Shown here in pieces: positions 12,001-64,000 of a stretch of DNA of 64,000 nucleotides; the first letter of the stretch is position 1, and each line of letters begins with the position of its first letter. Under the pieces are notes generated by a model that worked only from the letters and a program-made list of their open reading frames with translations, searched no databases and was not told the origin of the DNA. This DNA comes from an uncultured Lentisphaerota bacterium. Its GTDB lineage: Bacteria > Verrucomicrobiota > Kiritimatiellia > CAIQIC01. The position numbers were made by a program, and so were the translations under genes. The stretch covers positions 62,001-126,000 of the forward strand of contig CAISWQ010000018.1 of the NCBI GenBank assembly GCA_903889245.1. Reading direction: 5' to 3'.

Positions 12001-12723
12001 GAACTCGAGCAGCGCTACAACTTCCTCATCCAGCAGCAGGACGACCTGACCAAGGCCAAGGAACAGCTCATGGAGTTGATCAAGAAGATCAACAAGACCA
12101 CCACCGAGATGTTCTCCAAGACCTTCGAGCTGGTGAACCAGAATTTCCAGACGATGTTCAACCGCATGTTCGGCGGCGGCACCGCCAAGCTCGTGCTCGT
12201 GGATGAGGAAGATGTGCTCGAATCCGGCATCGAGATCATCGCGCGCCCGCCGGGCACCAAGCTCCAGAGCGTCAGCCTGCTCTCCGGCGGCCAGCGCACG
12301 ATGACGGCCATCGCGCTGCTCTTCTCGCTCTACCAGGTCAAGCCCAGCCCGTTCTGCGTACTCGACGAGCTCGATGCCGCGCTCGACGACTCGAACATCG
12401 GCCGCTTCATCGGTGTGCTGAAGGACTTCGTCCAGCAGTCGCAGTTCGTGGTCATCACGCACAACCGCCAGACCATCGCCGCCGCGAGCGTCCTCTACGG
12501 CGTGACGATGGAACAGCGCGGCGTCTCCAAGATCGTCTCGGTCAAGTTCAGCCACGAGAAGCGCGGCGGCAGCGGCAAGCTTGGCGGGCTGCACAACGAT
12601 GGCCAGCATCCGCAGGAGCCGACGGTCGTGCTGCCCCCGGAACCTGCACCCGCGTCTGTCACAAGCGTGGCCCCGGCATCGGTCCCTCCCGAGGGCAGCC
12701 CGCCACCTGCAACAAGTTCCTAA
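9010..12723 (+). CDS. smc: Chromosome segregation protein SMC
   Basis: Chromosome-condensing ATPase that acts with ScpA/ScpB as a ring on DNA. The Walker A loop GPNGCGKSN lies at residues 31-39. Long Gln/Glu/Arg/Ala coiled-coil arms flank a central hinge domain (about residues 500-640, beginning near FPGGAKLLLDAKRPLI). The C-terminal head has the ABC signature LSGGQRTMTA and Walker B FCVLDELDAALDD with the D-loop. At 1237 aa it is slightly long because of a disordered Pro-rich tail. I start it at GTG 9010, which follows GAGG and gives the standard VYLKYIEMVGFKSF N-terminus; the frame is open much further upstream, but that part overlaps the HtrA lipoprotein gene. The signature has QRT where most SMC proteins have EKA. 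Confidence 0.95.
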   Translation: MYLKYIEMVGFKSFADKTKLVFEPGMTAIVGPNGCGKSNVSDAIRWVLGEQSPRALRGAQMADVIFNGTDTHKPLGMAEVSLTLTDCEKHLGTEFNEVTVTRRVFRSGEGAYFINKAPCRLKDIQRLFMDTGMGTDAYSIMEQGRIDLILSSRPEDRREVFEEASGITKYKTDKKEAIRKLEATEANLLRLGDIIREVRRQIISLQRQVGKARRYKTLQEQLRGYDLFLSRDRLQILAGEIQTLDAKIASLAEQEEAAAAEVATLDERATVIRGEMSKTEQEISDAIDAAAAAKAELDRIHDLLRVNNERIRELEQLSERDTRDAAQAEINLATHREGLAEVGRQLDAATTERDTAEKELAAESGKLAKLDQQVEKLRAHLNELRAESMGIESKLTHHQNELAELEARERTTVIRRERLAAEKADIERTLNIGATHRAEMQTTLEALTRAVQEQRDLIQSLSGQRADRAARARQLRADLAGLQAQVAAKQAQLELLKKSEAEGKGFPGGAKLLLDAKRPLITSRDLLLGSLASQLKTAPEYATALEVALRAWMDAVVVRDEAAGLAFLKELLQQGAGSARLLAIAALAPVPAPVDAAPGTPLLDHVTCADSVRPLLQRLLGNVRVVASLSELPDPLTEGVTFVTPQGALVRAGGAMECWLPETREAAPLARHNLIEELGRQCEELAQKVAAGERELAALTQDDATLETTQAQARAELEERQRKLAVRQGEQQVLSQQERQQQQRAETVTWELEALEKQHSLGGDQRTKLLDETERLRNRQAEIRAALATQGDELRTLEQQREAQFTAVSEQRIQAAARRQHCEHLAARREPMQARIRELEALILERTGGINSYRARIQDLQTAIHAAQMQVTPLEGTVRQQNARLAAAHERRAKNTAALTAEDAQLRQRRAALDELRKHKNQFDIERTEQRMRHQTLAERVTGSYNVMLEDVLAAPEPAWENGLKPERDQLETLVAEIRAKMESMGPVNLVAIEEHQELEQRYNFLIQQQDDLTKAKEQLMELIKKINKTTTEMFSKTFELVNQNFQTMFNRMFGGGTAKLVLVDEEDVLESGIEIIARPPGTKLQSVSLLSGGQRTMTAIALLFSLYQVKPSPFCVLDELDAALDDSNIGRFIGVLKDFVQQSQFVVITHNRQTIAAASVLYGVTMEQRGVSKIVSVKFSHEKRGGSGKLGGLHNDGQHPQEPTVVLPPEPAPASVTSVAPASVPPEGSPPPATSS

Positions 12724-12765
12724 GGCACGGTGAGAAGTTACCGCTGCAAACGACGCTGACTGGCA

Positions 12766-13656
12766 TCAAACGCGGGGAATCTGCCGGACGCAGCGGGCGA
12801 TGTCGTCAATCTGCTCGGCCTTGTCGAAGCCGATCAGCAGCCAGTCGGCGCGGGCCTCGGTCAGCACATGGCGGAGGGCGGCGAGTTTCTTCTCCTCGTC
12901 GTTGCCGACCTTGCCCTCGGCGAGAATCTTCATCGCGATCAGGCCCTTGCCGGCGGCTTTGATCTGCCGGGCCACCGGCAGCACTTTTTCCGTCGGGGCG
13001 TCCATTATCATGCCGAAGGGATTGATGCGCGCGTGGACCGTGTCGGTCCACGGCGTCTGGGCCGCCGCCGCGAGCGCTACGAGCGAGTGACACGAGACGC
13101 CGTGCGCGCGGATGACGCCTTGCTTCTTCAGGTTCGCCAGGATGTCTTCCTGCTTCTGCAATTCCTCCGGCCACGTCTCGGTCGTCGCGCAGTGCAACTG
13201 GACCATGTCGAGGTAGTCGGTGCCGATCTCCTTGAGGAACCGCTTCACCACCACGTCGGCATCGGGCCGTTCCTTTTCGGGGATGCCGCCGCCGCGGAAC
13301 CAGATTTTGGAGGAGAGGCAAAGCTCGCTGCGCTTGATGCCCTTGAGCGCGGGCAGGACGAAGGGATGTGTGCCATAGAGATCGGCCATGTCGAAGGCGC
13401 GGATGCCGCGATCGAAGGCGGCGCGTATCAAGGCATGGGCCTTCTCGGCGCCCATGCGCGTCATATTGCATTGCCGCATCCCGCCGCGCACGCCCGTGCC
13501 CATCATCAGGCGCGGAAATTTCACGCCGGTGTGACCGAGTTCAACGACCTCGAAGACATCGAAGTGGCCCGCCGCTTTTCCCACCGCGCCCGCGCGGCCC
13601 AAGGCCAGCGCGCCCGCGCCGAGCGCCGCCGATTTCAGAAATGCACGTCGTTTCAT
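12766..13656 (-). CDS. Tat-exported aldo/keto reductase
   Basis: NAD(P)H-dependent oxidoreductase fold. The N-terminus MKRRAFLKSAALGAGALALG is a twin-arginine (RRAFLK) signal, so export in folded form is likely. The AKR barrel follows, with FDMADLYGTHPF holding the catalytic Asp/Tyr, SSKIWF the Lys, and LDMVQLHCA the His. These are the usual D-Y-K-H positions. ATG 13656 is preceded by AGGAG. It lies 19 bases downstream of aroD and is probably co-transcribed with it. Substrate unknown. Confidence 0.85.
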   Translation of the reverse strand: MKRRAFLKSAALGAGALALGRAGAVGKAAGHFDVFEVVELGHTGVKFPRLMMGTGVRGGMRQCNMTRMGAEKAHALIRAAFDRGIRAFDMADLYGTHPFVLPALKGIKRSELCLSSKIWFRGGGIPEKERPDADVVVKRFLKEIGTDYLDMVQLHCATTETWPEELQKQEDILANLKKQGVIRAHGVSCHSLVALAAAAQTPWTDTVHARINPFGMIMDAPTEKVLPVARQIKAAGKGLIAMKILAEGKVGNDEEKKLAALRHVLTEARADWLLIGFDKAEQIDDIARCVRQIPRV

Positions 13657-13675
13657 GGTGGCTCCTGTTGGTGCG

Positions 13676-14428
13676 CTACTTTCGCTCATCGGCGGGATTC
13701 CGCAACTGCCGCCACAGCGCGGTGCAGGAGAGCTGGCCGGGCGCGGCGGACTTGCCGAGGAAGCCATAGGCGAGACACGAGCCCGCGCGCGCCAGCGCCA
13801 GCCGCGCCTCCGGCGCACCCATGCCGATGAGGCACAGCGGCCGCCGCGCTGCGCCGCGCTTGAGCAACGCCAACAACAACCGCAAATCGGCCTCTGCGTT
13901 CAAACGCGTCGCCAACTTCACAAGGTCCACGCCGCTCTTCCAACCGCGCGCGATGGTGCTCGCCAGCGTCGCCCGCGGCGGCGTCGCGGAGAAATCGTGG
14001 AAGGAACCGATCACCGGCTTGCCGGCGGCATGCGCGGCGGCGATCACGCGCGGCAGCAGCCGGTCGCTGATTTCAATATCCACCATGCTGACGACGGCGA
14101 GCCCGCGCTGATACAACGCGAGGCGCTCCGCTGCGGCGCCACACCATTTCCCGCCTTCGTCCGCCGAGCGGATGGTCAGCAGTACGCGCACACCGGCCTG
14201 CTCCAACGCGCGACAGCGCTCCAACCAGCGGCCAGCGCCGAGTCCGGTCAGGTCGAGCCGCCACTCAACAAGATCGAACGGCCGCGTTCGCGCCTTGAGT
14301 ACGCTCGCCGCCCCGGCGAAGGTCGAGATGACGCCGATGACCAGCGGCCGTTTTCCAGGCATTGGAAAAGCAGTGAGGTGTTTTTTCCAAGCCTTGGAAA
14401 CGCCGGACGATGCTCGCTTGGGTTTCAT
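13676..14428 (-). CDS. aroD: Type I 3-dehydroquinate dehydratase with a repeat-encoded N-terminus
   Basis: Third step of the shikimate pathway. Type I enzymes form a Schiff base: the family's EWRLDL substrate motif, the catalytic His in IGSFHDF and the Lys in VDLVKLAT are all present. Two starts are possible. ATG 14428 has no Shine-Dalgarno but lies 10 bases from a good -10 box (see 14439-14466), fitting a leaderless mRNA. ATG 14362 (MPGKRPLVIG) would give the usual family N-terminus but also lacks a ribosome site. With the first start, residues 10-26 are encoded by two copies of the window-wide palindrome (VSKAWKK and FPMPGK). Even the second start codon lies inside a palindrome copy. Confidence 0.85.
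   Translation of the reverse strand: MKPKRASSGVSKAWKKHLTAFPMPGKRPLVIGVISTFAGAASVLKARTRPFDLVEWRLDLTGLGAGRWLERCRALEQAGVRVLLTIRSADEGGKWCGAAAERLALYQRGLAVVSMVDIEISDRLLPRVIAAAHAAGKPVIGSFHDFSATPPRATLASTIARGWKSGVDLVKLATRLNAEADLRLLLALLKRGAARRPLCLIGMGAPEARLALARAGSCLAYGFLGKSAAPGQLSCTALWRQLRNPADERK
14351..14400. repeat. Palindrome array, 2 copies, in the 5' part of aroD
   Basis: Copies at 14351-14369 (TTTTCCAGGCATTGGAAAA) and 14383-14400, centres about 31 bp apart. They lie in frame inside aroD if the first start is used. Confidence 0.9.
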
Positions 14429-14438
14429 GACGGCGGCG

Positions 14439-14466
14439 ATTCTAACACAGCACGCATGAAGGTCAC
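14439..14466 (-). promoter_or_regulatory. Promoter of aroD, probably leaderless
   Basis: Minus-strand GTGACC and TAGAAT are 16 bases apart. The -10 box ends 10 bases before ATG 14428, leaving almost no leader. Confidence 0.5.
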
Positions 14467-14557
14467 GGACGATTTTTCAAGAATCAAAAATGTGACATCA
14501 CGGCACACCGATGATTCGATGGCGCTCACATGCGCATATATGACACACCACATCATG

Positions 14558-14573
14558 ATGAACGGTTGTTCAT
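14558..14573. promoter_or_regulatory. Inverted repeat upstream of the hsp20 pair
   Basis: ATGAAC-GGTT-GTTCAT is a perfect 6-base inverted repeat with a 4-base loop, about 45 bases upstream of the candidate -24 element. It is a candidate activator site. The rest of the 14429-14662 gap holds no gene. Confidence 0.35.
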
Positions 14574-14612
14574 TTTCCGCTGTTTTCTAGATGTTTAGGC
14601 TGATTCTTCCGG

Positions 14613-14630
14613 TTGGCATATTGACTGCTA
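14613..14630 (+). promoter_or_regulatory. Sigma-54-like -24/-12 promoter of the hsp20 pair
   Basis: TTGGCATATTGACTGCTA has GG and GC dinucleotides separated by exactly 10 bases, as sigma-54 promoters require. The predicted start near 14640 precedes the AAGGA ribosome site and ATG 14663. Confidence 0.5.
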
Positions 14631-14662
14631 AGCATGATCGCGCAGAAAGAAAGGAACAAATC

Positions 14663-15100
14663 ATGATACCGATACTGACACGAGTTGAGACGTTGGACGA
14701 TGGGCTGTTTGGCTTGGGTAACCTACAGCGGGAGATGAACCGTTTGCTGGAGGGCTATGCGGGTCGCGGCGAGGATTTCCCCGCGATCAACGTCTGGAGT
14801 AATCCAGAAAAGGCGGTGATCACCGCGGAGTTGCCCGGTATGGACCCGGCGGCCATCAACATCGCCGTGCAAGGCGATGTCGTCACGCTGTCCGGCGAGC
14901 GCAAGGCGGAGGAACTCGACAAGGACGAGGTCTTGCACCGGCAGGAACGCCGGCACGGCCAGTTCAGCCGCAGCGTCCGGCTGCCCTACGCGATCGCGCC
15001 GGACAAGGTCAGCGCGCGTTATAACCGTGGCCTTCTGGAAGTGACGCTGCCGCGGCACGAGGGCACCAAGCCACGCCGGATCGCCGTCGCCGGCGACTGA
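14663..15100 (+). CDS. Small heat-shock protein, Hsp20 family (first of pair)
   Basis: ATP-independent holdase chaperone that oligomerises through its alpha-crystallin domain. The domain is visible from about residue 40 (PAINVWSNPEKAVITAELPG) to the family motif in YNRGLLEVTLPR near the C-terminus. At 145 aa it has normal length. The short basic C-terminal tail lacks an obvious IxI/V anchor. ATG 14663 follows AAGGA; an in-frame ATG at 14591 would lie upstream of the promoter. The second hsp20 starts 14 bases downstream, so the two are co-transcribed and could form hetero-oligomers. A sigma-54-like promoter precedes the unit. Confidence 0.9.
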   Translation: MIPILTRVETLDDGLFGLGNLQREMNRLLEGYAGRGEDFPAINVWSNPEKAVITAELPGMDPAAINIAVQGDVVTLSGERKAEELDKDEVLHRQERRHGQFSRSVRLPYAIAPDKVSARYNRGLLEVTLPRHEGTKPRRIAVAGD

Positions 15101-15114
15101 ACAGGAGGCGCATC

Positions 15115-15471
15115 ATGTACAGCAAACTGCAACCTGACTCCATCGCCCCGGCGGTGGACATCATCGAGCGGAAGCACGAGCGCGTGGTCGTGGTGGATCT
15201 GCCCGGCGCGGACGAGAGCACGATCGAGGTCAACGCCGAGAACGATCTGCTGACGCTGACCGCGCGCGTCGCGGCCCAGGAGCCGCAGGACATGCAGGTC
15301 CTCTACCGCGGCTTTGAACTGCGCGATTACCGTCGCGTGTTCACGTTGCCCGACGACGTGGACCGGCAGCGCATCAGCGCGAAGTGCAAGCATGGTGTGC
15401 TGCACGTCACCCTGCCGAAGCGGCCCGAAGCCCAAGCGCGTCGGAAACAGATAAAAGTTGAAAAGGAGTAA
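15115..15471 (+). CDS. Small heat-shock protein, Hsp20 family (second of pair)
   Basis: At 118 aa this is a compact alpha-crystallin protein: it starts almost at the domain (APAVDIIERKHERVVVVDLPG) and has the second signature KCKHGVLHVTLPKRPEA, then a basic tail (RRKQIKVEKE) with an IKV element that could serve as the C-terminal anchor. It clearly differs from its neighbour, so it is not a recent duplicate. AGGAGG precedes ATG 15115. A strong stem-loop follows the gene. Confidence 0.9.
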   Translation: MYSKLQPDSIAPAVDIIERKHERVVVVDLPGADESTIEVNAENDLLTLTARVAAQEPQDMQVLYRGFELRDYRRVFTLPDDVDRQRISAKCKHGVLHVTLPKRPEAQARRKQIKVEKE

Positions 15472-15540
15472 GACCAGCGTAAGCTTCGGTCGTGGGAAGA
15501 AAAACAAAGTCCCACCTAAACAACGGTATTAACCGTTGGA

Positions 15541-15573
15541 AGTGAGCCGGGCGCGGGCCCGGCTCACTCGTTT
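15541..15573 (+). terminator. Rho-independent terminator after the hsp20 pair
   Basis: A 12-base perfect stem (AGTGAGCCGGGC pairing with GCCCGGCTCACT) with a 4-base loop is followed by a short T-run (CGTTT). A fragment like its right side (GGCTCACTGGTTTCTG) recurs near 39024. Confidence 0.7.
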
Positions 15574-15626
15574 CTGCTGCCGGACGCCCGCGCCTGTGCT
15601 ATCCTCCCGCCGCAACGGAGCCCAAC

Positions 15627-16673
15627 ATGCCCGTCAAATTCAAAGACTATTACGAGATCCTCGGCGTCAGCCGCACTGCGAGCGCCGACGAGATCAAGAA
15701 GGCTTACCGCAAGCTCGCGCGGCAGTATCACCCCGACGTGAACAAGGCCGCCGGCGCGGAGGCGCGCTTCAAGGAGATCAACGAGGCCAACGAGGTGCTC
15801 GGCGACGCCGAGAAGCGCAAGCGCTACGACGCGCTGGGCGCGAACTGGCGCGGCGGCCAGGAGTTCACGCCGCCGCCCGGCTGGGAAAATTTCCAGTTCA
15901 ACTTCGGTGGCGCGCAGGGTGCGCCCGGCGGCGGCGCGTTCCGCTTCGATACCGGCGGCGCGGGCGCGGCCGGGTTCAGCGATTTCTTCGAGATGCTTTT
16001 CGGCGGCGCGATGGGCGGCATGGGCGGCGCGGGCCGCGGCGGACGCGGCGGCGCGTTTCATTACCAAACCCAGACCCCGTTCGACATGGAGGAAGCCGCC
16101 GAGGAACTACGCGGCGCCGACCAGGAGGCCACCCTCACCGTGCCGCTCGAAGACGTCGCGCGCGGCGCGACGCAGAGCATCTCGCTCGCGCACGAGCAAC
16201 TCGATGAGCGTGGCCGGCCGCGCCGCGCGACGAAAACCTACGACGTGAAAATTCCCGCCGGCGCGACGGAAGGCACGCGCATCCGGCTCGCCGGCCAGGG
16301 CTCGCCCAGCCATCATGGCGGCGCGGCCGGCGATCTCTATTTGACACTCCATCTCGCGCCGCACAGCTATTACCGCGTCAACGGCCACGACCTCGAACTC
16401 GATCTGCCGCTCGCGCCGTGGGAAGCCGCGCTCGGCGGCAAGGTCTCCGTGCCGACCATCGGCGGCAGCGTGACGCTGACCATTCCCGCGGGAACCGAGA
16501 GCGGCCAGCGTCTGCGCCTGCGCGGCAAGGGCCTCTCCAAGCCCGGCGGGCGCGGCAGCGGCGACCTCTATGCCATCATCAAGATCGTCGTTCCCTCGCG
16601 CTTGAGCCCGAAGGAGCGCGCGCTGCTCGAAGAACTCGCCGCGGCCTCGACCTTCGCGCCACGCCCGTGGTAA
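15627..16673 (+). CDS. CbpA/DnaJ-type co-chaperone (no zinc finger)
   Basis: Class II J-protein that stimulates DnaK. Residues 5-70 are a J-domain with the HPD motif (RQYHPDVN). A Gly/Phe-rich linker follows (residues about 85-150), then two C-terminal substrate-binding beta domains ([35 protein letters not shown]) and the GKGLSKPG-type closing motif. The cysteine zinc fingers of true DnaJ are absent, as in CbpA. It lies directly after the hsp20 genes and their terminator and forms a chaperone cluster with them. An ACGGAG sits about 7 bases before ATG 15627. Confidence 0.88.
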
Positions 16674-55072: not shown

Positions 55073-55184
55073 TTTTCCAACCCTTGGAACTTTTCTGCCG
55101 ATTTTTTCCAAGGCTTGGAAAACTTCCGCCGTATTTTTCCAAGGCTCGGAAAAACTGCGGTGTTCCTTTTCCAATCCTTGGAAA
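55073..55184. repeat. Palindrome array, 4 copies, downstream of tRNA-Gln
   Basis: Copies at 55073-55090, 55102-55122, 55134-55154 and 55167-55184; centres about 30.5, 32 and 31.5 bp apart. The first begins 6 bases after the CCA end. The array lies between the tRNA gene and a convergent gene, so it is not upstream of any start codon. Confidence 0.95.
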
Positions 55185-55200
55185 CCGCGCCGGGCACCCG

Positions 55201-56040: not shown

Positions 56041-57683
56041 GGTTTGCGTCCCGCTTTTTTCTTCCGCATGGCGTCGTAGAGATTGGGCGGTTGCAGGCGC
56101 TCCGGAGGAATGGCCTCGAACCACATCCCGGCGGGCAGGCTCTCCTTCTTCTCGCGCAGGTTGACACCAACGATGATGATCGCGTCCTGCCCCAGGCTCT
56201 TCGGCTTGGCGGCCGGCTGGCGCGTGCGCAGGTTCCAGAACGTCGCGCCCGCCGCCGTATGGTTGCCACGTTCGCCGCCGCCGCTCGAAGAAAACAGGCG
56301 CGTGCCCTCGCCCGCGTCAATATCGGTGAACAGGTTTTCGTAGGGCGCCCAGCGGTGATGGTCCATGCAGAGATTCTCCGCCCGACCCGCGCAGAAGACG
56401 CAGCCCATCGCGCTCTGCACCGTGAGGTCGTGGATGAACTGCGTCTCCACGACAAAATTTGTGATGAGCGTGTCGTGGCCGTAGCTGGTGATGCCATGGT
56501 GACCGGTATGGCCCTGCGCCGATTTGCGCTGCGGGTCGGCGCCCAGCCGGATGCCATCAAGCGTGCAGAAGGTGCCGCGGATATACGGGCCGCTGTCGCC
56601 GTTCCAAATCCGCAGATCGCGCAGCCAGCAGTGCGCCGCGCCGGGGCCGATCTCCACGGGATTGAAGCCGACCTCGCGGAAATGCCCGCCGTAACGCGTG
56701 GCGGGGAATTCAAAGTTCAGGCCCTCGAGGCCCACATCGGTCACGCCCGGCAGAAACGCCGCCAGTTCTGGTTGCCATTCGGGACGCACCTCGAAACGCA
56801 GCGGGCGTTCCAGCGTCACCGTGTTGCCCGCCGCGGCCGTGATGCGGAAGACCTGGCGGCAGCGCCAGTTGTTCAGGCCGGAGAGCTTGCCACACTGGCC
56901 GTGATAGAGATATTTCAGCAGCGACTTCGCCGCATCGTCCTGCACGAGCAACACCACCTCCTCGCCGGGCTTGAACGCGGCGCGTTCCAGCGTGAGGCTG
57001 GTCGCGCCGCGCGGCGCGGGCGCGGCGACGCGCACCGCGTTACGCGGCTTTGCCTCGCTGCCGCCGATCATGATCAGCCCGCCGCCCCACGACCAGCCGG
57101 TCGTCGTCTGTTTGCCATCGGTCTTGGCCGGCTTGGGCCGCAGTTCCTCCAGCGGCTTGCGGAACAGCAGTGTGGTCTGGCCGGAGCCCGCGCCGCGCAA
57201 CACCAGGCTGGAGGCCTTGATTTCCAGCACGTCGTTGAGGAAGAAGCGGCCCGGCGGTATCAGCACCAGCTTGCCCGCGCCAGCGGCGAGGGCCTGCTTG
57301 AAGGCCGCGGTATCGTCGGTGCTGCCATCGCCCTTGGCGCCGAACGCCGTGACGGAGAGCGTCTCCTTCGGGATGCGGAACGGCTCCTCGCCGCGCCGGT
57401 AACCCGCGCAGGAAAAATCGGGCAGCCGGCCCGCCGCCGTCCAATGTGCCCCGTTCACATCCCACAATGCGGAGGTCTGTTTCTGCGCGAAACACGCTGC
57501 TGTGCCGACGGCCAGCGCCGCTGCGACGAGCAGGGCGCGGCCCGCCATGGAAATTTTTCCAAGGCCTGGCAAGGGTGGGGGCGTGTTTTTCCAAGCCTTG
57601 GAAAAATCCAGCTCAAGAAGTTCTGCGCTTGGGGAAAGGCCCTGGCGAGCGGTGGCCTGTGTGACGGTCGTTGCGAGTTTCAT
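56037..57683 (-). CDS. Secreted pectin-lyase-fold protein with repeat-encoded leader
   Basis: 548 aa from ATG 57683. The Pectate_lyase_3 start motif VTAFGAKGDGSTDDTAAFKQAL and the following LVLIPPGRFFLND mark a right-handed beta-helix as in polysaccharide lyases and phage depolymerases; substrate unknown. Two starts compete. ATG 57683 has a very good AGGAGCAAGGG; the protein then begins with 45 residues partly encoded by two palindrome copies (FSKAWKN, LPGLGK). ATG 57548 (MAGRALLVAAALAVG) gives a clean signal peptide but has no ribosome site. Probably the array was inserted just after the original start and is tolerated, or a leader peptide now couples to an internal start. Confidence 0.72.
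   Translation of the reverse strand: MKLATTVTQATARQGLSPSAELLELDFSKAWKNTPPPLPGLGKISMAGRALLVAAALAVGTAACFAQKQTSALWDVNGAHWTAAGRLPDFSCAGYRRGEEPFRIPKETLSVTAFGAKGDGSTDDTAAFKQALAAGAGKLVLIPPGRFFLNDVLEIKASSLVLRGAGSGQTTLLFRKPLEELRPKPAKTDGKQTTTGWSWGGGLIMIGGSEAKPRNAVRVAAPAPRGATSLTLERAAFKPGEEVVLLVQDDAAKSLLKYLYHGQCGKLSGLNNWRCRQVFRITAAAGNTVTLERPLRFEVRPEWQPELAAFLPGVTDVGLEGLNFEFPATRYGGHFREVGFNPVEIGPGAAHCWLRDLRIWNGDSGPYIRGTFCTLDGIRLGADPQRKSAQGHTGHHGITSYGHDTLITNFVVETQFIHDLTVQSAMGCVFCAGRAENLCMDHHRWAPYENLFTDIDAGEGTRLFSSSGGGERGNHTAAGATFWNLRTRQPAAKPKSLGQDAIIIVGVNLREKKESLPAGMWFEAIPPERLQPPNLYDAMRKKKAGRKP
57554..57606. repeat. Palindrome array, 2 copies, at the 5' end of the pectin-lyase gene
   Basis: Copies at 57554-57572 and 57586-57606 (TTTTCCAAGCCTTGGAAAA core), centres 33 bp apart. 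They lie between the strong ribosome site and the signal-peptide-coding segment. Confidence 0.93.
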
Positions 57684-57849: not shown

Positions 57850-58683
57850 ATGCTGATCGCCCACGCAGAGAGTCTGGATGTCCATCGTAATCTGGCGGTG
57901 GAGGAGTGTCTGCTGGAGCAGGTGGAGCGGCGCGGGCCGATCCTGTTCCTGTGGCGCAGCGCGGGCGCGGTGGTGCTCGGCAAAAATCAGAATCCGTGGC
58001 GCGAGGTGAATCTCCCGGTGCTGCGGGCGGAAGGGCTGTCGCTCGCGCGGCGCTGCTCCGGCGGCGGCACGGTCTTCCACGACGCAGGTAATCTCAATTA
58101 CGCGTTGGCGCTGCCGCGCGATGCCTATGATCAGGACGCGGTCTTCGAGCAGCTCATCCGTGCTTTTCATCGCGTCGGGCTTTCGGCGGCGCGCGGGCCG
58201 CATCACAGCCTGATGGTACACGGCCGGAAATTTTCCGGCAGCGCGTTCTGCTACCGGAGACGTGTCGCGCTGCATCACGGCACGCTGCTGGTCAACGCCG
58301 ACCTTGCGCGGCTGACGCGCGTGCTCACCGGCGGTTTGCAGCTCGCCACGCGCGCCATCGCCTCGCACCCGATGCCGGTCGTCAATCTGTCGGAAATCAA
58401 ACAGGGCTTCGACCTTGCAGCCGCGGCGCGGGTGGTCAGCTCGGCCTTTGCCGCCAAGGCGCAACCGCTCGCCGTGGACGAACTTGATATCACGGAGAAA
58501 CTGGAACAACAGCGCTCGTGGGCCTGGCAGTTCGGCCAGACGCCGCCGTTCGAGTTCGATCTGGACAGTGCGATCATCCGCGTGGAGCAGGGCCGCGTCG
58601 TCGCGCCGCCATCCATCGCGCTGACTGCGACGCAGCACGCGCGCCTTGCGGCGCTTTTCCAAGGCTTGGAAAAGCCAGGCTGA
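57850..58683 (+). CDS. Lipoate-protein ligase A-like protein
   Basis: Attaches lipoate (or octanoate) to carrier domains of oxoacid dehydrogenases or GcvH. Family motifs are LARRCSGGGTVFHDAGNLNYAL and the lysine loop HGRKFSGSAFCY. At 277 aa it is slightly short of LplA and may lack the small accessory domain, as in LipM/LipL-type transferases; the exact reaction is therefore open. The last residues (LFQGLEKPG) come from a palindrome copy. ATG 57850 has no Shine-Dalgarno; a TAAGCT box lies 6 bases upstream. Confidence 0.82.
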   Translation: MLIAHAESLDVHRNLAVEECLLEQVERRGPILFLWRSAGAVVLGKNQNPWREVNLPVLRAEGLSLARRCSGGGTVFHDAGNLNYALALPRDAYDQDAVFEQLIRAFHRVGLSAARGPHHSLMVHGRKFSGSAFCYRRRVALHHGTLLVNADLARLTRVLTGGLQLATRAIASHPMPVVNLSEIKQGFDLAAAARVVSSAFAAKAQPLAVDELDITEKLEQQRSWAWQFGQTPPFEFDLDSAIIRVEQGRVVAPPSIALTATQHARLAALFQGLEKPG

Positions 58684-58704
58684 ATTTTTCCAAGGTCTGG
58701 AAAA
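58655..58704. repeat. Palindrome array, 2 copies, at the 3' end of the lipoate ligase gene
   Basis: Copies at 58655-58673 (TTTTCCAAGGCTTGGAAAA) and 58685-58704, centres 30 bp apart. The first encodes the protein C-terminus; the second follows the stop codon. Confidence 0.93.
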
Positions 58705-58730: not shown

Positions 58731-58758
58731 AATCTCATACCCACGCGAGTGTGAGATT
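58731..58758. promoter_or_regulatory. Imperfect 28-bp palindrome, operator-like
   Basis: AATCTCATAC...GTGTGAGATT is symmetric at 11 of 14 positions. It shares the ATCTCA(C/T)AC half-site with the perfect palindrome 65 bp away. Confidence 0.6.
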
Positions 58759-58797: not shown

Positions 58798-58821
58798 TCT
58801 CACACCCGCGCGGGTGTGAGA
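58798..58821. promoter_or_regulatory. Perfect 24-bp palindrome, operator-like
   Basis: TCTCACACCCGC and its exact complement GCGGGTGTGAGA. A TAGAAT box at 58790-58795 sits just before it on the plus strand, but no convincing gene follows before the convergent znuB end. The rest of 58684-58951 contains only the palindrome arrays. Confidence 0.65.
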
Positions 58822-58951: not shown

Positions 58952-59782
58952 TCAAGCCGGCGGGCGGCGCGGGAGCAGGCGACTGGCGAGGCCGGTCAAC
59001 AGCAGCGCGAGGCCGAGCGTAACGACGGTCGCCGCGCCGGTCGGCAGGTCGAGTTGATAGGAAGCGACCATGCCCGCGCCGCTGGCGAGCGCGGCAAGCA
59101 CCCAGCCGAGGGCGAGTTGCCACGCCAGCGCGCGCACGAGCAGGTTCGCGCACACCGCCGGGATGATCAGGAACGAGAAGGTCAGCAGCACGCCGAAAAG
59201 ATGGACGATGACGGTGACGACCACGCCGAAGAGTGTGTAAAAGAGAAAATCCCACCACCAGATTTTCAAGTTGAGCGGCCGCTCGCCCTCGCGCGCGTGC
59301 GAGATGGCGAGGAACTGGCGGCGGAAGATGAAGTGGACCAGACCGATGAGCGCGAAGATGCCGGCGGCGCCGGCGATCTCGGCGGGCCGGATCAGGAGTA
59401 CGTCGCCGACCAAACTCTTGCGCAGCTCCTCGTTGCCCTCCGGGCTGCGGCTCAAGAGCAACAGGCCCGCGGCGGCGGCAACAACATAGACGATGCCGAT
59501 CAGCGCCTCCTGCGGCACATGTTTTTCGCGCGGGCGGGTGAACGTGAAGATCGCCGCGCCGATCAGGGTGAACGCGCCCGACCAGGCAAAGGTCTGCCAG
59601 TCGTGCGCGTCGTGATGCAGCAGCACGGCGACGCATGTGCCGAGCGCGGCAACCTGCGCGAGCGCGAGGTCCACGAAGATGATGCCGCGGCGGATGATGT
59701 GCAGGCCGAGGTAGATCAGCAGTCCCGGCAGCACAAGGCAGGCGACCAGCGGCCAGAGCATGACTTGCAAGGCTTCACTCAT
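58952..59782 (-). CDS. znuB: ABC-3 metal transporter permease (ZnuB-like)
   Basis: 276 aa with about eight membrane helices. Family segments include GLHIIRRGIIFVDLALAQVAALG near the N-terminus and the EAA-like loop around EALIGIVYVVAAAAG; the C-terminal helices carry FSFLIIPAVCANLL, characteristic of zinc/manganese ABC-3 permeases. It starts 9 bases after the stop of the substrate-binding gene. The partner ATPase gene (znuC) is not in the operon or elsewhere in the window. Confidence 0.88.
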   Translation of the reverse strand: MSEALQVMLWPLVACLVLPGLLIYLGLHIIRRGIIFVDLALAQVAALGTCVAVLLHHDAHDWQTFAWSGAFTLIGAAIFTFTRPREKHVPQEALIGIVYVVAAAAGLLLLSRSPEGNEELRKSLVGDVLLIRPAEIAGAAGIFALIGLVHFIFRRQFLAISHAREGERPLNLKIWWWDFLFYTLFGVVVTVIVHLFGVLLTFSFLIIPAVCANLLVRALAWQLALGWVLAALASGAGMVASYQLDLPTGAATVVTLGLALLLTGLASRLLPRRPPA

Positions 59783-59791
59783 GGCGGCTCC

Positions 59792-60700
59792 TCATGTGGC
59801 GCCGAGCGCGGCGGCGAGCGTGGTGACGAGTTTATCGAGCAGGGCCAGGTAGTCGCCCTCGGTGCCCTTGAGGCCGCCGGGATATTGCGCAAAGTCCACC
59901 ATGCGCGCGCCGGTTTCCCGGGCGATGGTCTCGGCCATGTGGCGGTTTTGGTAAGGCTCGATGACGATGGCCTTGATGCGCTCGCGCTTGATCGTTGCGA
60001 GCACGGTCGCGAGCTGCGCAGGCGAGGGCGGGATGCCGGGTTTGGGTTCGAGGAACAGGTCCATCTTCAGGTTGAAGCGCCGCGCGAAGTAGGGCCACGA
60101 GTTGTGAAAGGCGGCCACGCGCGCGCCGGCAAAAGGCGCGAGCCGCTTCTGCCACCCGGCTGCCTTCGCATCAAGCTTCTGGAGCCACGCCTGCAGCTTC
60201 GCCTCATAGCCGGCCTTGTGCGCCGGGTCAACGGCGGCGAGCCCGGCCGCGATGCGCCGGGCGGCGTGGCGCGCGTTCTCGGGATCGGTCATAAAGTGCG
60301 GGTTGCCCTTGGCGTGCAGGTCGCCCTTCGAGCGGTCGAGTTCGGTCGGCACCTCCAACAGCGCGAGGCCGTCGGCGATGGCGAGGCGGCCCGGCTGGCC
60401 GGCGGCGAGCCTGCCATTGCGCGCGCCATCGAGCAGCGGCGGCAGCCAGCCCGACTCCAACTCCGCACCGCCCTCGATCAGCACGTCGGCGCGGTTGAGC
60501 TTGAGGAGGTAGCTCGGCTTCGCGTCCACGAAGTGCGGATCCTCGGTCGGCTTGGCGAGCACGGTAATGGTGACCAGCTCGCCACCGACGGCCTGCGCGA
60601 GGGCGCCGAACTCGGCGGTCGTGGCGACGACGTTCAGCCTGGCGGGAGCGGCGTTCGCCGCAACCAGCATACAGAACAAGGTCGGTAATAGTTTTTTCAT
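59792..60700 (-). CDS. znuA: Metal ABC transporter substrate-binding protein (ZnuA-like)
   Basis: 302 aa, exported (signal peptide to about residue 18). Metal-ligand positions of the cluster A-I family are visible: EDPHFVDAKPS (His), GNPHFMTDPENA (His), AAFHNSWPYFARRF (His) and IEPYQNRHMAE (Glu/His region). The His-rich loop of many zinc-specific ZnuA proteins is missing, so manganese or mixed specificity cannot be excluded. AGGAAA precedes ATG 60700. A dispersed repeat lies between it and the porin gene. Confidence 0.85.
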   Translation of the reverse strand: MKKLLPTLFCMLVAANAAPARLNVVATTAEFGALAQAVGGELVTITVLAKPTEDPHFVDAKPSYLLKLNRADVLIEGGAELESGWLPPLLDGARNGRLAAGQPGRLAIADGLALLEVPTELDRSKGDLHAKGNPHFMTDPENARHAARRIAAGLAAVDPAHKAGYEAKLQAWLQKLDAKAAGWQKRLAPFAGARVAAFHNSWPYFARRFNLKMDLFLEPKPGIPPSPAQLATVLATIKRERIKAIVIEPYQNRHMAETIARETGARMVDFAQYPGGLKGTEGDYLALLDKLVTTLAAALGAT

Positions 60701-60735
60701 ACGGTCATTTCCTGTGTGTGTTGAAAGGCACATCC

Positions 60736-60760
60736 GGCCACGACGGAGCGTGGCCCTCCA
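60736..60760. repeat. GGCCACGAC-GAGCGTGGCC dispersed repeat
   Basis: Second copy of the 25-base unit seen at 48858-48882, here in the gap between the porin and znuA genes. As RNA it could form a hairpin and modulate expression downstream of the porin. Confidence 0.75.
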
Positions 60761-60788
60761 GCATGGTGTGGGTTGCTTACCGGTTTCA

Positions 60789-62090
60789 TCAGAATTTGTG
60801 TGCGGCGTGGGCGCCGATCATGAACTCCAGTTGCAGCCAGACCGCCTGCTCGTCATCGCCCCCGGCGACGCGGGTGTAGTTATATTGCAGGCGCAGCCTG
60901 GCGAATTCGCTGAAGTAGTAGGTGAGGCTGGGCGAGAGACGTTCGGCCTCGCCGCGCTGGGCATTGCCGTCTTCGCTCACGCCGGTGTTGCCGGTGACGA
61001 AATCGCCGCGCAGGCCGGCCACCCAGCCGCGGGTGAAGCCCCAGAGGACCTGTGCGTAGAAGCCCCAGTCGCGCAGATGTTCCTCCGGCAGGCCGGCCTC
61101 TTCATCAGCGCCGGCGAGGAAAGCGCGCCACAGCACTTCGCCCTGCACCTTGACGAAGGGCCAGCCGGCGCCGGCGTTGGTTGGCTTCCATTTCCAGTAG
61201 CCATCCACACCGTAGATTTGCGTACGCGCGGCCGGGCCGGTGTCGTTCGGGCCGAGCGCGGCCGAGGCGCCGAGCACGAGCGTCTGCTCGTCGGTCAGGT
61301 CGAACGCGGTGGCGAGGCGCGGCACATAGAGCAGGTCGCCGGGTCCGCGCAGGTCACGCGCGTTCGTGGCATGGCCGTAGAGCCGCGTGACGCCGTTACT
61401 ATCGGCCTCGCCGAGGTAGCGGAAGCTGAAGGCGTCGCCGCCCTGGCCGTTGAAGACGCCGAGCAGGGCCTCGGTGTACCACGGCGTCGGCACGAGCCAC
61501 GAGAGGCGCGCGCCGTTTTGCCGGAGGCCGTCGCCACCGAACATCCGGTTCAGCGCGAGCGGTTGGTCCACGAAGTCCCATGCGTGCGGATGCTGGTTGT
61601 TCTGGCGGCCGAACTCGACGAAGTAGCGGCCGGCCTTGAGCTGCAGGTTGCCGGGCAGGGCGGTGGTCTGGGCAAAGGCCTCCTCCAGTTCCAACTCGGT
61701 CTCCTCCTCCGGGCTCATCTTGAAGACGAGGTTGGCGAACGCCTTGAAGAACGGATCCACCGCGCCCTCGAGCGCGAGTTCGGCGGCGCGGATGGAGAAG
61801 CCGCGCTGCGAGGGATCATGATCGCCGGGCTGCAAGGTGGCAACGTCCGGCGTCGTGCTCCAGCCGGCGTTGAGCAGCACATCGAAGCCGGCGTTCATGT
61901 AGGCGCGGCCCGGGGCCACGGTGGGCGCGGGCTGCTCGCGCAGCCGTTGCTCCAGTTGGGTGGTGCGCAGCTTGAGGTCGCTGATTTCCTTGAGCGCGTT
62001 GCTCAAGGTGTTGTCCGCCGGGATGGTTTGGGCGCGGGCCAGCAGCGCCGCGGCGGCAAGGAAAACGGCCCAGAAAATTTCACGCTTCAT
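60789..62090 (-). CDS. Outer-membrane porin in the metal-uptake operon
   Basis: 433 aa. Signal peptide (to ARAQ), a coiled-coil segment (residues about 35-55, LSNALKEISDLKLRTTQLEQ), then a long region of amphipathic strands with aromatic girdles ending in a strand with terminal Phe (LQLEFMIGAHAAHKF), a typical barrel end. The coiled coil plus barrel layout recalls OprO/phosphate-selective porin-like or zinc-regulated porins. Position upstream of znuA and znuB suggests metal uptake through the outer membrane. AGGAGA precedes ATG 62090. Confidence 0.75.
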   Translation of the reverse strand: MKREIFWAVFLAAAALLARAQTIPADNTLSNALKEISDLKLRTTQLEQRLREQPAPTVAPGRAYMNAGFDVLLNAGWSTTPDVATLQPGDHDPSQRGFSIRAAELALEGAVDPFFKAFANLVFKMSPEEETELELEEAFAQTTALPGNLQLKAGRYFVEFGRQNNQHPHAWDFVDQPLALNRMFGGDGLRQNGARLSWLVPTPWYTEALLGVFNGQGGDAFSFRYLGEADSNGVTRLYGHATNARDLRGPGDLLYVPRLATAFDLTDEQTLVLGASAALGPNDTGPAARTQIYGVDGYWKWKPTNAGAGWPFVKVQGEVLWRAFLAGADEEAGLPEEHLRDWGFYAQVLWGFTRGWVAGLRGDFVTGNTGVSEDGNAQRGEAERLSPSLTYYFSEFARLRLQYNYTRVAGGDDEQAVWLQLEFMIGAHAAHKF

Positions 62091-62148
62091 TTTTCTCCTG
62101 TAAGGTTGAACGAACGTCACGGCCGCCCGCGACGCGCGGACGACCCGG

Positions 62149-62451
62149 TCAGACGACGGAGAAAAACGGCGGCGGCCCGCGGGGTGGATGCTCCCGCTGG
62201 AAGAGCTGGGCGGGGGCGGGCGTCCAAACGTGGGTCAGGTGCGGCGTCCAGTGCCGGGCGGGGGTCGGCGTGACGTGGGCCGGCGTGCAGTGGAGGGCCG
62301 TAGTCGCCAGTTGGCAGAGGGGACAGGCGGCATCGTCGTGGTTGTGCCCGGAACACTGCGCCTGGTGCACGATGGGCGCGAACCAAGCGCATAACCAGAG
62401 CGCCAGAAGCGCTCCCGCACCGCGTCGCCACCTGGAACCGGGCTTGCGCAC
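62149..62451 (-). CDS. Small exported His/Cys-rich protein, first gene of the metal operon
   Basis: 100 aa. One hydrophobic N-terminal segment (GALLALWLCAWFAPIV) is followed by a metal-ligand-rich stretch: HQAQCSGHNHDDAACPLCQLA, with CxxC and several His, and a Pro/His-rich tail. It resembles small DUF2946-like proteins found near metal transporters; a role in metal sensing or delivery is inferred. It starts with GTG 62451, six bases after a -10 box, implying a leaderless mRNA. The porin gene follows after 58 bases. Confidence 0.6.
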   Translation of the reverse strand: MRKPGSRWRRGAGALLALWLCAWFAPIVHQAQCSGHNHDDAACPLCQLATTALHCTPAHVTPTPARHWTPHLTHVWTPAPAQLFQREHPPRGPPPFFSVV

Positions 62452-62486: not shown

Positions 62487-62541
62487 ACCGCCGGATTTTT
62501 TAGCGTGCATTGGCTGGAAGTTTATGGGATTTTGCGCCGCC

Positions 62542-63171
62542 ATGAAAACACTCCGCAAACTGCTCGGTTACGACGATAAATTTTTCGATCTGCTGGAGGC
62601 CAGCGCCGTTGAGGCGCAAAGCAGTGTTCAGTTGCTGGTGGAACTGCTCAAGGACACGACCAAGTGCCCGACGCTGGACGCCTTTGTCCAGACGCGCCGC
62701 AAGGACAAGCGCATCACGGAGCAGATCACGGAGGAACTGTGCAAGACCTTCGTCACGCCGCTCGAGCGCGAGGATATCGAGGAACTCTCGTTCGCCCTCT
62801 ACAAGATTCCGAAGATGGCGGAGAAATTCAGCGAGAAGTTCATCCTCTGCCGCGAGGCGCTGGGGCCGGTGGACTTCACCCGGCAGGTTACGCTGCTGGA
62901 GCAGGCGGCCGAGATCATCGTGCAGATGGTTCGGCAGTTGCGCGACCGCAAACATCTCGACGCGCTCAAGGAGCAGAATTCAAAGATGCACTACCTCGAA
63001 GGTGAGGCCGACAAGCAGATGCTGGAACACGTCCGCGAACTCTACAGCGGCCGGCACGAGCCGCTCAAGGTCATCATCGTCATGGATCTCTACGAGACGC
63101 TGGAAAAAATCATTGACCGCTGCCGCGATGCCGGCAACGTCGTCTTCCAGACCGTGCTGAAGTATTCCTGA
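62542..63171 (+). CDS. DUF47 / PhoU-like Pit accessory protein
   Basis: 209 aa, all-helical PhoU-like protein of the DUF47 family. Conserved segments are DKFFDLLEASAVEAQSSVQLL, the metal-binding type motif DKRITEQITEELCKTFVTPLEREDIEEL, and DLYETLEKIIDRCRDAGNV at the end. These proteins accompany Pit phosphate transporters and are thought to control them. ATG 62542 is used; an in-frame ATG at 62524 lacks a ribosome site. The Pit gene starts 11 bases downstream. Confidence 0.88.
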   Translation: MKTLRKLLGYDDKFFDLLEASAVEAQSSVQLLVELLKDTTKCPTLDAFVQTRRKDKRITEQITEELCKTFVTPLEREDIEELSFALYKIPKMAEKFSEKFILCREALGPVDFTRQVTLLEQAAEIIVQMVRQLRDRKHLDALKEQNSKMHYLEGEADKQMLEHVRELYSGRHEPLKVIIVMDLYETLEKIIDRCRDAGNVVFQTVLKYS

Positions 63172-63182
63172 CCGGGGGCGGC

Positions 63183-64000
63183 ATGCTGACACTGATCTTG
63201 TGCGTCATCCTGGTCGCGCTGGCCTTCGAGTACATCAACGGCTTCCACGACACGGCCAACGTCATTGCCACCAGCGTCTCCACGAAAGTGCTGACGCCGC
63301 GCCAGGCCGTGCTCATGGCCGCCGTCTTCAATCTGCTTGGCGCGATGGTCGGCATCTCGGTGGCCACGACCATCGGCAAGGGCCTGGTGGATACGCAATT
63401 CGTCACCATCCAGACGATCTTCAGCGCGCTCCTGTCCGCCATCGTCTGGAATCTGTTGACGTGGTGGCTGGGTCTGCCCTCCAGTTCCAGCCACGCGCTT
63501 ATCGGCGGCCTGTGCGGCGCGGCCCTCGCCAGTTCCGGCGGCCAGTGGAGCGTTATCCGTTGGGCCGTGGAAAATCCCGCCACGCACAAGATCGAGGGCC
63601 TCTGGCCGAAGGTCGTCCTGCCGATGTTCTCCTCGCCCGCGATCGGCTTTCTGATCGGCGCGTTGCTGATGCTCCTGCTGATCCTGCTGTTGCACCGGCT
63701 GCGGCCGCGGCTCATCAACGCCGTCTTCGGCAAGCTGCAGCTTTTGAGCGCGGCCTGGATGGGCTTCAGCCACGGCACCAACGATGCGCAGAAGACGATG
63801 GGCATCATCGCGCTGATCCTCTTCACCGCGACGCGCCAGGGCGTCTTCAATGACGCACCCGCGTGGCTGCAATTTCTGAAGACCCCGGAATTCAGCATTG
63901 CCTTCTGGGTCAAGCTGGCTTGCGCCATCACCATGTGCGCGGGCACCGCGGCCGGCGGCTGGCGTATCATCAAGACCCTCGGTCACAAGATGGTCCGGAT
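63183..64000 (+). CDS. Inorganic phosphate transporter, PiT family (cut by window end)
   Basis: Low-affinity phosphate symporter. Both PiT signatures appear: EYINGFHDTANVIATSVST near the N-terminus and GFSHGTNDAQKTMGIIAL after the central loop, plus the LGLPSSSSHALIGGL repeat segment. 272 codons are visible before the right edge; the last helices are missing. ATG 63183 follows a GGGGGCGG stretch. It is co-transcribed with the DUF47 gene. Confidence 0.92.
   Translation, partial: MLTLILCVILVALAFEYINGFHDTANVIATSVSTKVLTPRQAVLMAAVFNLLGAMVGISVATTIGKGLVDTQFVTIQTIFSALLSAIVWNLLTWWLGLPSSSSHALIGGLCGAALASSGGQWSVIRWAVENPATHKIEGLWPKVVLPMFSSPAIGFLIGALLMLLLILLLHRLRPRLINAVFGKLQLLSAAWMGFSHGTNDAQKTMGIIALILFTATRQGVFNDAPAWLQFLKTPEFSIAFWVKLACAITMCAGTAAGGWRIIKTLGHKMVR

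Follow-up and report, generated by a model that had tools for sequence, protein, structure and literature searches.

An ABC-3 permease cassette with its own porin and no ATPase gene in an uncultured Lentisphaerota bacterium: a predicted metal importer

The window analysed here is a 64,000-nucleotide stretch of contig CAISWQ010000018.1 (contig 18) from the genome of an uncultured Lentisphaerota bacterium (GenBank GCA_903889245.1; 5.26 Mb, 96.6% complete). Its minus strand carries a predicted metal-uptake cassette of four genes, running from 62451 to 58952 in the order small His/Cys protein, porin, ZnuA-type binding protein, and ATP-binding cassette (ABC) permease of the ABC-3 type. The small secreted His/Cys protein (62149..62451; 100 aa) has a hydrophobic N-terminus, H..H and CPLC motifs, and a C-terminal RGPP. 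The outer-membrane porin (60789..62090; 433 aa) starts with an N-terminal hydrophobic stretch, followed by a helix and a beta barrel in the AlphaFold2 model. The ZnuA-type periplasmic metal-binding protein (59792..60700) matched PF01297 (E 1.9e-54, 185 bits), and the 276-aa permease (58952..59782) passed PF00950 (E 9.8e-31; 107.6 bits vs. a cut-off of 20.1). No ABC ATPase was found between the cassette genes, in the downstream gene, identified as a lipoate ligase with Pfam, or in the upstream phoU/pit-like genes. The initial annotation had described a path across both membranes from which the ATPase is absent. Both parts of this description were confirmed at the level of predicted function, as porin, binding protein, and permease are all present and neither the locus nor its neighbouring genes encode an ATPase.

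All five other genomes of the window's family carry the cassette, likewise without an ATPase (surveyed loci and genomes are numbered with the prefixes L and G). The copies L036 and L037 are full length in one stretch, and L035, L038, and L039/L040 are cut by contig ends. The permease was the last cassette gene in all five relatives, or else the contig was cut inside it. The gene following the permease, read by eye, varied from the L17/rpoA ribosomal cluster (two genomes) to a TrpB-like gene (one) and regulator and efflux genes (two); among the downstream genes inspected in these relatives, no ATPase gene directly followed the permease.

Bacterial and archaeal genomes were scanned with the permease alignment and two peptide patterns, yielding at least 559 confirmed loci, of which the best 80 were kept. 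The cassette occurs in over a dozen phyla, including Verrucomicrobiota, Acidobacteriota, Gemmatimonadota, Planctomycetota, Nitrospirota, Omnitrophota, Latescibacterota, and Neomarinimicrobiota. Gene neighbourhoods were compared at 99 loci (102 minus three duplicates, both halves of the contig-split genomes L039/L040, L102/L103, L107/L108, and L109/L110 being counted), with 1 kb or more available downstream at 86 of them and on both sides at 68. The binding protein lies just upstream of the permease in 92 of the 99 loci and the porin upstream in 90; an ABC-3-type ATPase beside the permease was identified in none of them. The same search on 21 classic ABC-3 loci, used as a control, recovered an adjoining ATPase in 20 and the cassette porin in none. 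Matches to ABC ATPases within 2 kb were obtained at five of the 99 loci: two CbiO, one DrrA-type, one FtsE-like, and one untyped fragment, roughly 100 codons long, that lies on the opposite strand at a contig end. The DrrA-type and FtsE-like ATPases (L128 and L156) were rejected as cassette partners on these profile assignments, which, as for the genomes G436 and G437 below, are best matches nearly all under the curated cut-off. Besides the His/Cys protein, no recurrent neighbour able to supply energy was found, most neighbour clusters being spurious overlapping frames. Judged from gene content, the cassette is intact as it stands, its absent ATPase is no damage, and it belongs to a large, mostly uncharacterised family of predicted metal importers without their own ATPase. 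Word searches of the open-access literature found no account of ABC-3 cassettes lacking an ATPase.

Two genomes of other families encode the binding protein together with two permeases, again without an ATPase for them; the porin is present in the one whose contig reaches far enough. Two-permease versions in other families of the class were observed at L041 (2996-4875), L042 (3680-5604), L101 (7502-9381), and L104 (300-1996). Their first permease has no coupling helix motif, and several have a long N-terminal extension. Upstream of the L101 cassette (12310-16551), genes for CbiM, CbiQ, CbiO, another outer-membrane protein, and a NikR-like regulator were recognised by eye; with these neighbours, the cargo there may be nickel or cobalt. 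The CbiO found near two of the two-permease loci was rejected as the cassette ATPase, since it belongs with the adjacent CbiM/CbiQ-like genes.

The region downstream of the window permease contains palindromes, as the initial annotation had noted. Two near-identical 24-bp palindromes (TCTCACACCCGCGCGGGTGTGAGA; 58733-58756 and 58798-58821, 41 bp apart) lie just 3' of the permease, outside the transporter, and may be a terminator or a repeat; the window holds these two matches and no others, with none expected by chance. A 19-bp palindrome (TTTTCCAAGGCTTGGAAAA; elements of the form TTTTCCAAG...TGGAAAA) had 48 matches in the window on both strands (e.g., 55073-55185, 57555-57605, and 58655-58704), often at 31-32 bp spacing. 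Allowing at most one mismatch, it matched 1,321 times in forward and 1,309 times in reverse orientation across the genome, compared with 0 for the reversed control. Because about 1,300 copies per strand are spread across the genome, it marks no break at the locus. A literature search for the palindrome sequence found no paper. The proposal that the gene order was broken downstream, with an ATPase once in the operon and lost by rearrangement at the repeats, draws on the position of these palindromes. However, the cassettes of the five family members end at the permease, or at a contig end inside it, and the genes that follow differ, none of them an ATPase; the ATPase sought beside the permease in relatives was not found; no ATPase was identified at this place in other phyla; and the 19-bp repeat is genome-wide. 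Local loss of an ATPase is almost certainly not the explanation and was rejected on the family members and the loci of other phyla. On the other side of the cassette, a phoU-like gene (PF01865) and a phosphate transporter gene (PF01384) diverge from it (62524-63998), an adjacency kept in G001 and G002. A rough count of palindromes and a search with five half-site patterns revealed no zinc-regulator box common to the upstream regions.

The window porin matched no Pfam family, even at E 1. Its AlphaFold2 model (predicted local distance difference test, pLDDT, 89.7) combines a helix at the N-terminus with a porin barrel, and its best Protein Data Bank match was OprO (4rjw; Z 28.6, root-mean-square deviation, rmsd, 2.7, 299 aligned), with other porins at Z 23-25. 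The residues E104, H167, E318, E395, R400, and H431 were invariant in 42 of 42 porin sequences. In the binding protein, H57, H130, H136, H200, and E219 were conserved in 23/23 sequences, counted after row L001, an internal fragment, was dropped from the alignment. In many loci, a profile search detected relatives of the His/Cys protein, with an H...CxxC motif and a RAPP or RGPP ending, in the region upstream of the porin. They matched the Pfam family DUF2946 (PF11162) below its cut-off of 23.7 bits: the window protein with E 0.33 and 12.1 bits, and the best match, L036, with E 0.0014 and 19.8 bits.

The AlphaFold2 model of the permease (pLDDT 88.9) was structurally closest to PsaC (7kyp; Z 26.5, rmsd 3.3, 264 aligned). 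The permease scored 28.5 bits against the ZnuB equivalog NF007089, under its cut-off of 284; the genome's own ZnuC likewise fell under its equivalog cut-offs. A fully supported, long branch split 98 clade rows from 23 ATPase-linked permeases in a quick maximum-likelihood tree, which carried long-branch warnings. The small Neomarinimicrobiota genome G429 (L163) had two ABC-3 matches, both with clade-like low scores.

In MntBC, an Asp-His-Asp triad lining the metal path (Asp47, His51, and Asp94 of MntC) was found to be essential (PMC8487065). The window permease departs from this triad, with L39 (and D38 beside it), Q43, and E92 at these positions (residues 38-43, 59654..59671; E92, 59507..59509; minus strand). 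The first acid is shifted one residue earlier: D38 occurs in 99/99 clade sequences, with Leu or Ile at position 39. Position 43 is Gln in 99/99 clade sequences and His in 22/23 ATPase-linked permeases, and position 92 is Glu in 99/99 and Asp in 21/23, respectively; the 99-sequence counts include two duplicates (L115 and L139). Y24, H28, and R32 are also invariant across the clade. Part of the conservation seen at R32-D38 and W177-Y182 reflects selection by the two peptide patterns used in the scan; Y24, H28, Q43, and E92 fall outside both patterns. By alignment and tree, the cassette permeases are a separate clade with their own pathway residues. The ratio of nonsynonymous to synonymous substitution rates (dN/dS) over the whole permease within the family was 0.14-0.30, indicating purifying selection. 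Together with the normal predicted fold, this value argues that the permease is in use and well kept, and is no relic.

An altered triad might also mean that the permease has given up transport and, together with the binding protein, serves to sense metal or to relay it at the membrane. The upstream porin with conserved His and Glu (90/99 loci) suggests flux instead, and no regulator, kinase, or other partner of that kind was present among the recurrent neighbours. This explanation is considered improbable.

The permease segment that would dock an ATPase was compared with that of IsdF from Staphylococcus aureus. According to PMC10147376, contact between IsdF and its shared ATPase FhuC depends jointly on the Ala and Gly of the AxxxG motif in the IsdF coupling helix, and double replacement of the pair separated the two proteins. 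The AxxxG pair was found in 22 of the 23 ATPase-linked ABC-3 permeases, and the window permease has E167 and N171 in place of A and G within a degenerate coupling segment (residues 158-175; 59258..59311, minus strand). Within the window's family (five permeases), the ratio of nonsynonymous to synonymous differences per site (pN/pS) was 0.75 in this segment vs. 0.23 elsewhere, the segment having the highest pN of 261 stretches of 18 codons. In these five genomes, ZnuB, the permease linked to ZnuC, was nearly invariant there (0.13 vs. 0.38 elsewhere); the comparison comprises one family of five genomes and a segment chosen from the motif. The segment drifts despite the presence of ZnuC, and the ATPase docking site is therefore nearly free to change in the window's family. 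The docking segment of Neomarinimicrobiota (5 sequences) drifts as well.

Exactly one further ABC-3 system was detected in the source genome, a complete set of binding protein, ATPase, and permease (ZnuA-ZnuC-ZnuB) on contig 47, so that the search for znuC elsewhere in the genome suggested by the initial annotation had one positive outcome. The ATPase on contig 65 (38% identity to ZnuC) was rejected as the missing partner, as it adjoins its own BtuC-like permease. The main rival explanation is that an ABC ATPase encoded elsewhere energises the permease in trans: ZnuC where present, or else one borrowed from a different system, in the way that FhuC energises IsdF in S. aureus (PMC10147376). The ZnuC of contig 47 makes such sharing possible in the window's genome, and the precedent is direct. 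To survey other genomes, 62 cassette genomes were used (44 from the best-80 loci and 18 others), and in 33 of them the cassette permease is the sole ABC-3 permease. A real FecCD permease was present in nine of these 33 genomes; in the other 24, either nothing matched or the cassette permease itself gave a weak match. A search profile built from 19 ABC-3-linked ATPases found no clearly ABC-3-type ATPase in the 33 genomes. True ABC-3 ATPases score 179-284 bits with close relatives left out, and the top match reached at least 179 bits in nine of the 33 genomes, adjoining its own BtuC-like permease in eight of the nine.

Two genomes were read at the level of single ATPases. For G437 (CP070763.1, one chromosome record), 30 of the 35 ATPase matches were inspected. 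Ten of those without a membrane-protein neighbour were assigned to the LptB, MalK/UgpC, LolD/MacB, Dpp, or ABC-2 types, a typing that leaves out L261, L264, L270, L271, and L273. MalK/UgpC-type ATPases are known to be multi-use, and a general ATPase serving the G437 cassette therefore remains a candidate. In the small Neomarinimicrobiota genome G436, nine of 23 matches were typed, including GldA, LptB, two DrrA-like, LolD, FtsE, and PmtA types; of the remaining two of the nine, one MlaF/ECF-like ATPase stands beside a seven-helix protein, and one without an NCBIfam match at the threshold used adjoins a second ATPase. The ATPases assigned to a type in these two genomes are of kinds other than ABC-3. 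Overall, the shared distant ATPase proposed by the initial annotation is possible in the window's genome but doubtful as a general answer, given the 33 genomes without a second ABC-3 system and a docking segment that varies more than any other part of the permease in the window's family even though ZnuC is present. Energising in trans is a possible explanation, though less likely than not.

For the window's lineage, we lean slightly towards ATP-independent metal entry gated by the binding protein, a reading favoured by the lack of an identified ABC-3-type ATPase at the 99 loci, the 33 genomes with no second ABC-3 permease, the altered triad, and the drifting docking segment. A divalent metal would pass the outer membrane via the dedicated porin, be captured by the ZnuA-type protein, perhaps aided by the His/Cys protein, and be handed to a permease dimer. 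Docking of the loaded binding protein would open the permease, and the ion would enter without ATP, with the membrane potential and tight cytoplasmic metal binding as the driving forces. Such a mode may be likened to that of solitary energy-coupling factor (ECF) S-components lacking their energising module; BtuM and BioY are reported to transport without it (PMC6072759). The metal is most likely zinc, as suggested by the His ligands and the relationship to ZnuA; the inward direction and the energy source are likewise inferred. More tentatively, and somewhat short of an even chance, the cassettes may represent a widespread class of importers made up of just the porin, the ZnuA-type protein, and the permease. 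Its permease, of ABC fold, would depend on the binding protein but not on ATP, and would have a rebuilt pathway (Asp38/Gln43/Glu92) and a docking helix drifting in several lineages.

Several observations weigh against entry without ATP, and some of them favour energising in trans. The AxxxG pair is kept in 70 of 99 clade permeases, including the window's relatives L037 and L038, which still carry A and G, and the permease model has the intact fold of a normal type II ABC permease in structure comparison. Acidobacteriota and Gemmatimonadota keep Ala and Gly, though the segment around them is variable, and Chthoniobacterales keep the entire segment, which is no more variable than the rest of the permease. 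In the ATPase search, other ATPases score up to 236 bits, overlapping the range of true ABC-3 ATPases. In addition, most of the genomes are metagenome bins, and those reached via loci are of unstated completeness. Of all the evidence, the mixed picture that these alignments give of the docking segment outside the window's family speaks most strongly against extending the ATP-free reading to the whole clade.

The cassette shares with ZnuABC, MntABC, and PsaABC the binding-protein family, the permease family and fold, and the order of binding protein and permease. It differs from them in having no ATPase gene, in D38/Q43/E92 instead of the Asp-His-Asp triad, in its long-branch permease clade, and in its own porin and His/Cys protein, such a porin being found in 0/21 classic loci. 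Like IsdEF with FhuC of S. aureus (PMC10147376), it encodes a predicted type II importer but no ATPase, and most clade permeases carry AxxxG; unlike that system, many cassette genomes have no candidate type II ATPase, and the window permease has lost AxxxG. BtuM and BioY are likewise ABC-type membrane parts occurring without an energising module and, by the account in PMC6072759, can transport in this state, whereas the predicted importer of the cassette combines an ABC-3 permease, which is not an S-component, with a binding protein and a porin. The cassette porin shares its barrel fold with OprP/OprO but has no Pfam family, carries conserved His and Glu, and is genetically tied to a metal-binding protein. 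The His/Cys protein resembles DUF2946 in its small size and in weak profile similarity over the C-terminal half, but every match was under the family cut-off.

Type II ABC importers are taken to require ATP hydrolysis. An ATPase-less family in more than a dozen phyla would either show that the permease fold can work alone or point to a hidden common ATPase. If the fold works alone, the role of ATP would become directly testable in a natural system. The cassette also adds a porin family apparently dedicated to metal uptake, and it points to a way in which many uncultured bacteria of soil and fresh water may obtain zinc or a similar metal.

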